In this document: in pieces, positions 33,574 through 62,601 of the stretch | Layout of the letters: each line of letters begins with the position of its first letter | How positions within the stretch are numbered: the first letter of the stretch is position 1 | Assembly (NCBI GenBank): GCA_902555275.1 | Contig: CACDRY010000001.1 | Span: 62,001-126,000 of the forward strand | Length of the DNA stretch: 64,000 nucleotides | Source of the DNA: an uncultured Pelagibacteraceae bacterium | GTDB taxonomy: Bacteria; Pseudomonadota; Alphaproteobacteria; Pelagibacterales; Pelagibacteraceae | Direction of reading: 5' to 3' | The notes under the pieces: generated by a model | The model's database searches: none | The model's input: the letters and a program-made list of their open reading frames with translations, nothing else | Told to the model about the DNA's origin: nothing | Program-made: the position numbers and the translations under genes

Positions 33574-34257
33574 TTAATTTTTCTTATATTTTTGCCACAA
33601 GTCTGGTCTTCGGTCGCGTGTTATAGCCTCAGATTGGGATAAACGCCAGTCTTTAATTTTGGCGTGATCACCTGAAATTAGCACATTTGGGACCTTTTTT
33701 TCCTCCCAAACTTGAGGTTTTGTGAATTGTGGATATTCAAGAAGGCCATTCTCAAAACTCTCATCTCTTGAGGAATTAATATTACCTAGAATTCCTGGAA
33801 TAAATCTTAAAATAGAGTCTGTTACAACAAATGCAGCAACCTCACCCCCTGACAATATAAAGTCACCAATGCTAATCTCTTCAATATCTCTACTTTCTAG
33901 TATTCTCTCATCTACTCCTTCGAAGTGTCCACAAATTAAATTGATTGTTTTTTCACTCGAAAACTCTCTTGCAAGTTTAGAATTAAAAACTTTTCCTCTT
34001 GGACTTAAATAAAGGGTCTTTTCTTTAGCCTTGATATTTGCATCTAATGAATTTGCCAAAACATCTGCTTTCATAATCATTCCATTCCCTCCACCATAAG
34101 GAGTATCGTCAACAGTTTTATGTTTATCTAAAGCATAATCTCTTATGTTTACTGTTTCTAAATCCCATTCTTTTCCTTTTGACTTTCCAAAAAGGCCTTT
34201 ACTCAAATAACCAGGAAAATATTCAGGATACAACGTAAATACTCTAGACAAAAACAT
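33574..34257 (-). CDS. trmD: tRNA (guanine-N1)-methyltransferase; start moved to [16 protein letters not shown]
   Basis: TrmD knot motif ([28 protein letters not shown]); the ORF-track 5' extension to 34497 is an out-of-frame reading of the rpsP repeat tail. Confidence 0.95.
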
Positions 34258-34261
34258 TATT

Positions 34262-34732
34262 CTATTTAGCTTCTTCCTTCGGAGCTTCTGTTTTAGCTTC
34301 TTCCTTCGGAGCTTCTGTTTTAGCTTCTTCTTTTGGTGCCTCTGCTTTTGGAGCTTCTGTTTTAGCTTCTTCCTTCGGAGCTTCTGTTTTAGGAGCATCT
34401 GCTTTAGCTTCGCCACCCTCATCAGTTTTCTTTCTATCTTTTTTTGGAATTGCTTTTTGAGGATTATTACCTTTTGCTGGCATAGGCATAATCTCATTTT
34501 CTCCTAATAATCTTGCAACTCTAGTTGTTGGTTGTGCCCCTTGACCCAGCCAATACTTAACTCTCTCAACATCTAATCCCATTCTTTCTTTTTTTTCTCT
34601 CGGAATTAGAGGATTAAAAAAACCTAATTTTTCTATAAATCTTCCATCTCTTGGAAATCTACTATCAGCAACCACTATCTTATAAACTGGTCTCTTCTTA
34701 GTTCCTCCCATTGATAAACGCATTTTTAACAT
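34262..34732 (-). CDS. rpsP: Ribosomal protein S16 with long low-complexity C-terminal tail
   Basis: [41 protein letters not shown] is the S16 core; tail of EAPKEEAKT repeats. Confidence 0.95.
34266..34388. repeat. 27-bp tandem/near-tandem repeat inside the rpsP 3' end (unit ttagcttcttccttcggagcttctgtt)
   Basis: Exact copies at 34266-34292, 34293-34319 and 34362-34388; degenerate copy at 34320-34346. Confidence 0.9.
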
Positions 34733-34744
34733 TTGTTCTCCTAT

Positions 34745-36103
34745 TTATTTTAATTGATTAAAAAGTTCTGGTGGTATGCCTTTATCCATCATCCCTTTTG
34801 TATTTCCTTTGGACATTTTTTTCATCATTTCTGACATCATCTTAAATTGCTTAAGCAATTTATTGATAGTGGCTACGTCTGTTCCTGAGCCATTAGCAAT
34901 TCTTTTTTTTCTAGAACCATCTATAATCTTTGGGTTTTCACGCTCTTTTTTAGTCATAGATAATATTACCGCCTCGTTTTGAGTAATTATTTTTTCATCC
35001 ACTCCAGCTTGATCCATTTGAGATTTAACTTTTGAAACACCAGGCAAAAAAGACATTATACCTTCAATACCACCCATTTTTTTCATTTGTCTTAGCTGAG
35101 TAAGATAATCCTCTAACGAGAACTGACCTTTTTTTAATTTTTCCTCTGTTTTTTTTAATTTTTCTTCATCTAGATCTTCTGCAGCCTTTTCAACAAGGGA
35201 AACAATATCTCCCATACCTAAAATTCTATTGGCAATTCTGTCTGGGTGAAAAATTTCAAAATTTTCTATCTTTTCACCAACTCCTAAAAATTTAATTGGA
35301 ACATCTGCAACATATTTCATACTTAATGCTGCTCCACCTCTTCCATCGCCATCTGATCTTGTAAGAATAATACCTGTCAGATTAACAGTACTTTTAAATT
35401 CTTTAGCAACATTAGCTGCTACTTGGCCAGTCAAAGAATCTGCGACAAGAATTGTTTCTGAAGGATTTATAATACTTTCAATTTGTTTAATCTCACTCAT
35501 CATTTGTAAATCAATCTGAGTTCTTCCGGCTGTATCAAATAGAATTACATCTGCTCCATTAAGATTAGCAGCACTAATCGCTCTTCTACAAATATCTGCA
35601 GGAAGTTGATCTTTGATGACTGGAAGCGTTATTATATTATTTTGCTCACCCAAAAGTCTTAGTTGCTCTTGTGCAGCAGGTCTGTAAACGTCTAGACTAG
35701 CCATCATAACTTTTTTCTTTTTGTTAGCCTCTAAAAATCTTGCTAACTTAGCTGTAGTGGTAGTTTTTCCAGAACCCTGTAACCCAACTAACATCACTGG
35801 AACAGGAGGTACTGCATTTAATTCAATATCAGAATTTTTATCCCCTAAGAAAGAAATTAACTCATCGTTAACAACTTTAACTACCATCTGTCCTGGTGAA
35901 GTAGACCTAATGATCTCTTGACCAAGAGCTTTGGGTTTCACTCTATTTATAAATTCTTTTACAACTTCTAAAGATACATCCGCTTCTAAAAGAGCAAGCC
36001 TAATCTCTCTTAAACCCTCATCTACTTGCTTTTCATCAAGCGAAGGCGCCTTTTTTAAAGAAGAAAATATTTCTTCAAATTTATTTGTTAAATTTTCAAA
36101 CAT
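34745..36103 (-). CDS. ffh: Signal recognition particle protein Ffh; start at MFENLTNKFEEIF
   Basis: GLQGSGKTTTTAKLA and DTAGR GTPase motifs; Met-rich M domain. The ORF-track start at 36127 lies within the structured upstream RNA. Confidence 0.96.
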   Translation of the reverse strand: MFENLTNKFEEIFSSLKKAPSLDEKQVDEGLREIRLALLEADVSLEVVKEFINRVKPKALGQEIIRSTSPGQMVVKVVNDELISFLGDKNSDIELNAVPPVPVMLVGLQGSGKTTTTAKLARFLEANKKKKVMMASLDVYRPAAQEQLRLLGEQNNIITLPVIKDQLPADICRRAISAANLNGADVILFDTAGRTQIDLQMMSEIKQIESIINPSETILVADSLTGQVAANVAKEFKSTVNLTGIILTRSDGDGRGGAALSMKYVADVPIKFLGVGEKIENFEIFHPDRIANRILGMGDIVSLVEKAAEDLDEEKLKKTEEKLKKGQFSLEDYLTQLRQMKKMGGIEGIMSFLPGVSKVKSQMDQAGVDEKIITQNEAVILSMTKKERENPKIIDGSRKKRIANGSGTDVATINKLLKQFKMMSEMMKKMSKGNTKGMMDKGIPPELFNQLK

Positions 36104-36117
36104 AATCACATCCAGCA

Positions 36118-36213
36118 AGTATCGCACCAGTGGGCGAACTCTCGCTGACTGGTGTCGATCTCTTTGTTACCAAAGACACCGCAAATTGCTGTATTTTGCG
36201 GAAACGGCGATAA
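36118..36213 (-). ncRNA. Candidate structured RNA / cis-regulatory leader upstream of ffh
   Basis: On the minus strand: hairpin CCGCAAA..TTTGCGG (36201-36179), hairpin CTTTG-GTAA-CAAAG with a GNRA loop (36175-36162), bipartite hairpin CACCAGT/ACTGGTG with inner GCGA/TCGC (36154-36125), closing pairing TATCGC/GCGATA (36212-36207 with 36125-36120). Confidence 0.6.
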
Positions 36214-36263
36214 ACTATAATAGAGGTTCAAAATGTCAATAAATAAGTTAAATACTGAAGTAT

Positions 36264-37088
36264 ATGGAATTTAAAGCTTTTAAAATGGATGGTCTTGGAA
36301 ATGATTTTGTAATTATTGATAATAGGTCAAATAATATGAAATTAAACAAGGATCAAATTATTAAAATTTGCGATCGAAACTTTATTGGTTGTGACCAACT
36401 AGTCTATATTAACAACAGTGATAATGCTGATGCTGATCTAGAGTTTTATAATTCTGATGGTTCGGCAGCTGACGCATGTGGAAACGGTACAAGATGTGTA
36501 GCCTTTTTATTATCAAAAGAAAAAAATACAAAAAATATAAGCGTTCAAGTAGCATCAAAACAGTTGAATTCAAAGTTACTTGATGATGGTCAAGTCGAAA
36601 CAATAATCGGTGTACCAAAAACTAATTGGAATGAAATTCCTTTATCTAAAAAACTAAACACTAAAAATTTAGGAATTATTATAGAAGATAACAATAACCA
36701 AGCAGTGAGTGGCGGTATAGCTATTAACGTAGGTAATCCTCATGCTATTTTTTTTGTAAATGATGTAGAAAATTTCAATTTAGAAAAAATTGGACCCGAG
36801 ATCGAAAATCATGAATTTTTTCCGGAAAAATGTAATTTCACCCTTGCTCAAAAATTAAATGAAAATCATTATAAAATTAAAGTTTGGGAAAGAGGTGCAG
36901 GTTTAACAAAAGCATGTGGAACTGCTGCGTGCGCAACAGCAGTGGCTGCAAATTTAGAAAAATTAGAAAATTCTAGAACTGAAATTGAATTCAGTTTAGG
37001 AAAATTAATAATTTCTATTGATGAAAGTCAACAAATTCATATGAAAGGACCTGTATCTAGTATCAGAGAAATAGATATAAATATCTAA
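36264..37088 (+). CDS. dapF: Diaminopimelate epimerase
   Basis: KMDGLGNDFVIIDNR; DACGNGTRCVA; KACGTAACATAVAA active-site cysteines. Confidence 0.97.
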   Translation: MEFKAFKMDGLGNDFVIIDNRSNNMKLNKDQIIKICDRNFIGCDQLVYINNSDNADADLEFYNSDGSAADACGNGTRCVAFLLSKEKNTKNISVQVASKQLNSKLLDDGQVETIIGVPKTNWNEIPLSKKLNTKNLGIIIEDNNNQAVSGGIAINVGNPHAIFFVNDVENFNLEKIGPEIENHEFFPEKCNFTLAQKLNENHYKIKVWERGAGLTKACGTAACATAVAANLEKLENSRTEIEFSLGKLIISIDESQQIHMKGPVSSIREIDINI

Positions 37089-38005
37089 TGGGTATTTTCG
37101 AAAAGTTTAAATTAGGTTTTAAAAAAAGTGCTGATAATATTTCCTCAGGGCTTAGAAATATAATAGTAAAAAAGGAAATTGATGATGAAACATTAAACAA
37201 AATAGAGGAATTTTTGATTAGTTCTGATGTTGGCATTGACGCTTCAGCTGAAATAAAAAATATTATCTCTCAGAAAAAAATTGATCCTAAGAAAAATGCG
37301 GTTGAGGAAATAAATGCTATTTTAAAAGAATATATTTTAGAGTTAATGATACCCTTAGAAAGAAAAGATTTTTTTGAAAATAAAGAAAATTTAAACGTAA
37401 CATTAATTTCTGGTGTAAATGGGGTAGGTAAGACGACCACTATCGGTAAAATTGGTAAAATATTTAAAGATAACGGCTCAGAAGTAATATTTTCTGCTTG
37501 TGATACCTTTAGGGCAGCAGCAATAGAGCAATTAGAGTCTTGGTCTGATAAGATTGGAGCGTCAATTATCAAATCAAATCCAGGGTCTGACCCTGCTTCA
37601 GTAGCTTACAAAGCGATAGAATATGCAAAAAACAACAATATTAAACGGGTACTAATTGATACCGCTGGCAGATTGCAAAATAAGAAAAATTTAATGGATG
37701 AATTCAAAAAAATTGCAAATGTTATAAAAAAAACAGATGAAAGCGCACCTCATGATGTTGTTTTAGTTCTAGATGCAACCTCCGGGCAAAATATAATAAA
37801 TCAACTTGAAGAATTTGATAAAATTATAAAAATTACCGGTTTAATTATGACAAAACTTGATGGGACAGCAAAAGGAGGAGTACTAATTGCAATTTCAAAA
37901 AAATATAAGGTTCCAATTTTAGGCCTTGGACTTGGAGAAAAAGAAGACGATTTACAAATTTTCAATGCTGAACAATTTGCAGATGCATTTACTCAATTTA
38001 ATTAA
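37088..38005 (+). CDS. ftsY: SRP receptor FtsY
   Basis: GVNGVGKTTTIGKIG, DTAGRLQNK, TKLDGTAKGG. Confidence 0.96.
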   Translation: MGIFEKFKLGFKKSADNISSGLRNIIVKKEIDDETLNKIEEFLISSDVGIDASAEIKNIISQKKIDPKKNAVEEINAILKEYILELMIPLERKDFFENKENLNVTLISGVNGVGKTTTIGKIGKIFKDNGSEVIFSACDTFRAAAIEQLESWSDKIGASIIKSNPGSDPASVAYKAIEYAKNNNIKRVLIDTAGRLQNKKNLMDEFKKIANVIKKTDESAPHDVVLVLDATSGQNIINQLEEFDKIIKITGLIMTKLDGTAKGGVLIAISKKYKVPILGLGLGEKEDDLQIFNAEQFADAFTQFN

Positions 38006-61842: not shown

Positions 61843-62601
61843 TTATCTTCTTTGACCGAATAATCTCAAAAGCATTATAAATAAATTTATAAAATCTAAA
61901 TATAAAGTTAGTGCTCCCATAACAGCTTTTTTACCCATTAACTCACCGCTGTCAGAGGCAGCATACATGTTTTTAATTTTTTGTGTATCGTATGCCGTTA
62001 AGCCAACAAATACTAAAACACCTATTATTGATATTGCAAAATACATCATTGATGATTTTAAGAATATATTTACCACTGATGCAATTATAATTCCTATTAA
62101 ACCCATCATTAAAAAAGATCCCATCTTAGTTAAATCTCTTTTTGTTGTATAACCATAAATACTCATTGCTCCAAATGTTGCTGAAGAAATAAAGAATACT
62201 CTTGTTACACTTAAACCTGTGTAAACTAGTAATATTGAAGAAAGAGATAATCCCATTAATGCAGCAAATACCCAAAAAGTTGTTTGAGCTCTTGAAGCAC
62301 TCATTTTATTAATTCCAAAACTCATATAAAAAACAATTCCTAATGGGGCTAACATTACAATCCATTTTAAACCTGATAAATAAATTGCATTTCCAAATTC
62401 TGTTAATCCAACAATTGCTCCATTTGGATCTGTTACAACAGACATTTTAAATGATAAAAGTGCGATTATTCCAGTAAGCAAAACACCAGTTGCCATATAG
62501 TTGTAAACTTTAAGCATGTAGGCTCTTAAGCCTTCATCCGTAACTACAGTTTGTTTGGCTGTTGATGCTTTATTTAAAATATTATCTTTATTGAATTCCA
62601 T
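61843..62601 (-). CDS. Bax inhibitor-1 / YccA-YbhL family membrane protein
   Basis: 7-TM protein with GLTAYDTQKIKNMY and LYLDFINLFIMLLRLFGQRR. Confidence 0.93.
   Translation of the reverse strand: MEFNKDNILNKASTAKQTVVTDEGLRAYMLKVYNYMATGVLLTGIIALLSFKMSVVTDPNGAIVGLTEFGNAIYLSGLKWIVMLAPLGIVFYMSFGINKMSASRAQTTFWVFAALMGLSLSSILLVYTGLSVTRVFFISSATFGAMSIYGYTTKRDLTKMGSFLMMGLIGIIIASVVNIFLKSSMMYFAISIIGVLVFVGLTAYDTQKIKNMYAASDSGELMGKKAVMGALTLYLDFINLFIMLLRLFGQRR

Follow-up and report, generated by a model that had tools for sequence, protein, structure and literature searches.

The structured element directly upstream of ffh in this uncultured Pelagibacteraceae bacterium is the already catalogued ffh motif (Rfam RF01793), in its original setting. 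Related copies persist upstream of rpsP in a marine order in which we detected no component of the signal recognition particle (SRP). What is novel here is the three-hairpin unit to which the motif belongs, the C.C core of its last hairpin, and its separation from the SRP. Based on its distribution and conservation, we lean toward the view that the leader acts in cis to control its operon, and that its ligand is most likely one of the ribosomal proteins encoded there (S16 or L19) as opposed to Ffh or the SRP. Throughout, "the window" refers to the whole 64,000-nt stretch that was analyzed (GCA_902555275.1, contig CACDRY010000001.1, forward-strand positions 62,001 to 126,000).

The element lies in a gap of 160 nt (36104-36263), bounded by the ffh start codon at 36103 on the minus strand and by dapF, which begins at 36264 on the plus strand. 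A first-pass annotation, made from the letters alone, had described this gap as unusually long and full of complementarity, and its minus strand folds at −38.2 kcal/mol, compared with a mean of −29.0 kcal/mol for dinucleotide-shuffled sequences (z = −2.6; equaled by 4 of 200 shuffles). When searched against Rfam, the gap matched RF01793 ("ffh sRNA") at 58.7 bits, where the cut-off is 35 (window-wide E = 1.3 × 10−8), and this was the sole family to exceed its own cut-off anywhere in the window. The match ends 13 nt before the ATG of ffh. The original description of the ffh motif, as a single bulged hairpin, placed it between ffh and dapF of Pelagibacter HTCC1062, where the gap measures 159 nt (Meyer et al. 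2009; PMC2704228). The match and this description together identify the element as already known, and as the computationally proposed motif of marine alphaproteobacteria that the first-pass annotation had mentioned without a name. Both the Rfam model and that of Meyer et al. cover only the third hairpin (P3) of the leader that we describe below.

The features of the leader and of the neighboring genes are collected in Table 1. On the minus strand, the gene order is ffh, rpsP, trmD, and rplS, with ffh first, and we infer that the four are co-transcribed. The open reading frame of trmD overlaps rpsP at its start, with the true trmD start lying further downstream. The usual place of rimM is between rpsP and trmD, and the gene is absent from the operon in the window (33574-34732). 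The C-termini of S16 and L19 both carry similar Lys/Glu/Ala/Pro repeats (TEAPKEEAK-like).

Table 1. Leader elements and neighboring genes in the window
Feature	Position	Strand	Basis or remark
Promoter	36212..36239	-	−35 TTGACA at 36239-36234; probable −10 TAGTTT at 36217-36212; 16-nt spacer
P1 hairpin, CCGCAAA-ATACAGCAA-TTTGCGG	36179..36201	-	Predicted 5' end of the transcript
P2 hairpin, CGGUGUCUUUG-GUAA-CAAAGAGAUCG, one G.G mismatch	36156..36181	-	Core CTTTG-GTAA-CAAAG
P3 hairpin, the published ffh motif	36125..36154	-	RF01793 and covariation
RF01793 match	36117..36169	-	58.7 bits
ffh, signal recognition particle protein	34745..36103	-	TIGR00959, 575.7 bits
rpsP, ribosomal protein S16, second gene of the operon	34262..34732	-	TIGR00002, 97.6 bits
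trmD	33574..34497	-	TIGR00088/NF000648, match beginning at residue 85
rplS, ribosomal protein L19	33030..33572	-	TIGR01024, 142.7 bits
dapF, divergent neighbor	36264..37088	+	TIGR00652
ftsY, SRP receptor, 3' of dapF	37088..38005	+	TIGR00064, 320.6 bits

All three minus-strand hairpins that had been proposed at first reading are present. P3 comprises a 7-bp outer helix (CACCAGT/ACTGGTG), a C.C mismatch, an adjoining A.C position, a 4-bp inner helix (GCGA/TCGC), and a 4-nt loop. Among 46 distinct variants, between 44 and 46 preserve any given helical pair, and compensatory changes are frequent. The hairpin thus covaries, contrary to the lack of covariation that the first-pass annotation had named as refuting its proposal. 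The C.C mismatch is present in 45 of the 46 variants, and the position beside it varies (A.C, A.A, C-G, G.U, G-C, U-A, and others). P3 ends 21 nt before the ffh ATG, which corrects an earlier estimate of about 15 nt. Most leaders (L037-L119) also contain a conserved GYUUGG-like stretch 9 to 14 nt after P3, which is explained by neither pairing nor a ribosome-binding site.

Our data also support P2 as structured across the class. Its mean fold z-score is −2.33 over 87 leaders, compared with +0.08 and −0.24 for flanking controls, with shuffles that ignore kinship. The base of P2, CGGU:AUCG, overlaps the final three bases of P1 and occurs in the compensatory forms UGGU:AUCA (L047), CAGU:AUUG (L085), and CAAU:AUUG (L091). 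Counts of P2 pairs came from leaders pre-selected for at least seven of nine pairs, and support was therefore taken from the unselected fold z-scores and the compensatory cases. A scan for hairpins with exactly matching arms gave a weak signal for P2 because it allowed no mismatch. The GNRA tetraloop to which the first-pass annotation drew attention does occur here as GTAA, but it is a trait of the genus Pelagibacter (GAAA, GTAA, GCAA, and once GTTA) and not a general one. P1 finds support mainly in SAR11 and in one further alphaproteobacterial group: its arms read CCGCAAA:TTTGCGG in SAR11, and the f6/f24-type group outside SAR11 has CCGGAAG:CTTCCGG or CCGGAAA:TTTCCGG, a compensatory C-G/G-C change. 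As a class-wide part of the leader, P1 was not supported (mean fold z = −0.6).

All 87 distinct alphaproteobacterial leaders have a −35 element of the form TTGA[CT] at 40 to 150 nt (mostly 70 to 120 nt) before P3, where about 0.2 per leader would be expected by chance. Since the −35 lies at a similar distance in every leader, P1 to P3 most likely form a 5' untranslated region of roughly 100 nt; together with the minus-strand RF01793 match, this agrees with the initial view that the element is a structured 5' region and is transcribed in the direction of ffh. The −10 in the window is probably TAGTTT rather than TATTAT, because f2 relatives show TTGACA-N17-TAGTTT. With this assignment, the promoter spacing, at first thought not ideal, is ordinary, and transcription would start near 36204-36207, just before P1.

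The anatomy of the leader bears on a rival account in which it is a transcription attenuator, with P3 as an intrinsic terminator and refolding of P1 and P2 setting the level of read-through. A run of at least four U residues follows P3 immediately in 27 of the 87 leaders, and P1 and the base of P2 have CGG in common, which makes an alternative pairing possible. However, SAR11 leaders, including the one in the window, have no U run after P3, so that attenuation can be neither the sole mechanism nor the one operating here, and we rejected P3 as a terminator in the window for the same reason. We consider attenuation unlikely as the general explanation, although it fares best among the alternatives. 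The missing U run also makes translation or mRNA stability the more likely output step in the window.

Among 61 close relatives, 50 carry the motif, as do 75 of 289 evenly sampled alphaproteobacteria (59 of them above the cut-off), always as one copy per genome. Of 118 loci, 115 have ffh after the motif (113 by tblastn, and two where the contig runs out but the start of ffh can still be seen); in the remaining three, which belong to one family, rpsP is directly downstream. Matches below the cut-off still lie upstream of ffh, suggesting that the weak ones are real. The distance from the end of the Rfam match to the ATG ranges from 8 to 284 nt across loci; a mechanism in which P3 itself occludes the start site can thus be rejected as a general one.

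Genomes G330, G234, and G109 fall into an order of alphaproteobacteria represented by 18 draft genomes of about 0.9-1.4 Mb in three genera, whose named members are single-cell genomes labeled PS1 clade (AH-321-D15, with SecY coordinates identical to those of G363) and OCS116 cluster (AG-390-A19). Ffh gave no tblastn match in the three genomes searched. The SRP54 domain, which is common to Ffh and FtsY, was above cut-off in none of the 18 genomes and in all 14 control genomes, and SRP RNA was found in none of the 18. Each of the six genomes of this order that were checked with the same tool has SecY. Two incomplete named single-cell genomes had no SecY match and so carry less weight. The motif is present in 14 of the 18 genomes, and all 14 located copies lie 34 to 41 nt upstream of rpsP with their helical pairs and C.C mismatch retained. 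In the two of these loci examined (L055 and L145), dapF-mtaB is still divergent beside the leader; ffh is missing between the leader and rpsP, and the neighborhood is otherwise intact. The S16 tail in this order is likewise repetitive (Ala/Pro/Glu in L091). More broadly, 8 of the 289 sampled alphaproteobacteria had no SRP54 match at E ≤ 0.001, and a further two, G114 and G292, gave weak partial matches only.

Complete loss of the SRP in a whole marine order would be surprising if confirmed in closed genomes, and we found no report of it in a literature search that mostly covered sources outside subscription journals. Retention of the motif after this apparent loss represents a natural experiment that removes the obvious candidate ligand for a shared function. 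Since the motif is kept without Ffh, FtsY, or SRP RNA, its shared function cannot need them, unless it was re-purposed there; it may also have been kept merely along with the promoter. The tie to ffh implied in the first-pass annotation is not essential, as the element remains before rpsP where Ffh is gone.

The same evidence weighs against autoregulation by Ffh, in which Ffh, either free or lacking enough SRP RNA, would bind the leader and lower ffh translation. This idea is attractive, as the motif sits immediately 5' of ffh at nearly every locus, Ffh is an RNA-binding protein, and a part in ffh regulation has been suggested for the motif (Meyer et al. 2009; PMC2704228). Against it stand the order described above and the structure of P3, which has neither the tetraloop nor the loop pattern of SRP RNA; Meyer et al. 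(2009; PMC2704228) likewise noted no resemblance between the motif and SRP RNA. The genome carries a separate SRP RNA gene elsewhere (contig C7; RF00169, 45.9 bits), and RF00169 has no match at the site of the motif, where RF01793 alone matches. Complementarity between leader and SRP RNA was not above that of shuffles in six genomes, the duplex energies being no better, and we rejected both mimicry of SRP RNA and pairing with it. Ffh autoregulation therefore appears quite improbable to us, below attenuation.

Lower still, we place the possibility that a stable small RNA is processed from the leader and acts in trans, as the "sRNA" of the Rfam label suggests. Meyer et al. (2009) cite metatranscriptomic detection of the motif among small RNAs (PMC2704228), and RNA-seq recovered an RF01793 transcript in Mesorhizobium huakuii (PMC5596092). 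The latter is several hundred nucleotides long and apparently lies on a plasmid (IGR_Pb-19; PMC5596092). A trans-acting role fits poorly with a single copy per genome in a nearly constant place 5' of one operon, and no exposed conserved seed is evident, as the most conserved bases are in helices and the internal mismatch. The least probable alternative is a generic, ligand-free structure that stabilizes the operon mRNA against decay: its stacked hairpins and its place at the inferred 5' end would suit such a role, but the near-invariant C.C mismatch and specific core bases would not be expected without a ligand.

We therefore return to ribosomal-protein feedback, to which we give somewhat better than even chances. 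In the mechanism we propose, the promoter and its ~100-nt 5' leader of three consecutive hairpins would serve the ffh-rpsP-trmD-rplS operon; excess ribosomal protein would bind P3, with its C.C mismatch, along with P2, and operon expression would fall. The cis-regulatory role and the feedback are deduced from conservation and gene context. S16, whose gene adjoins the leader where ffh is gone, or L19 would be the most economical ligand; the choice between them, like that between control at transcription and at translation, is a guess. The natural experiment points to the S16 operon, and a 2024 review reports that the regulation of rpsP-rimM-trmD-rplS is not known, which is unusual for ribosomal-protein operons (PMC10931766). 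Some further observations temper this reading. The motif occurs in only about a quarter of the sampled alphaproteobacteria, whereas ribosomal proteins are present throughout. In addition, scanning E. coli 16S and 23S rRNA for simple patterns revealed no obvious mimic of an rRNA site, with no common core sequence save one GTCAGCGA match in 23S. More tentatively, and with somewhat less than even confidence, we suggest that "ffh motif" may be a misnomer for an autoregulatory leader of the S16/L19 operon, retained in one ocean order after complete SRP loss.

Compared with known systems, the leader resembles the autogenous mRNA elements of ribosomal-protein operons in its structured 5' untranslated region and in the two ribosomal-protein genes of its operon, and the motif stays with rpsP once ffh is gone; it differs in that its ligand is putative. 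We know of no S16 leader for comparison. Its likeness to the bacterial small SRP RNA (RF00169) is a functional link through the ffh gene, whereas SRP RNA is a separate gene here and P3 neither matches that model nor has its loop pattern. It shares with the published ffh motif (RF01793) the same hairpin, organism group, and ffh-dapF gap, with a score above the curated cut-off. Unlike in the published description, two more upstream hairpins and a promoter belong to the conserved unit, the "bulge" is made up of a C.C mismatch and one position that varies, and some loci lack ffh.
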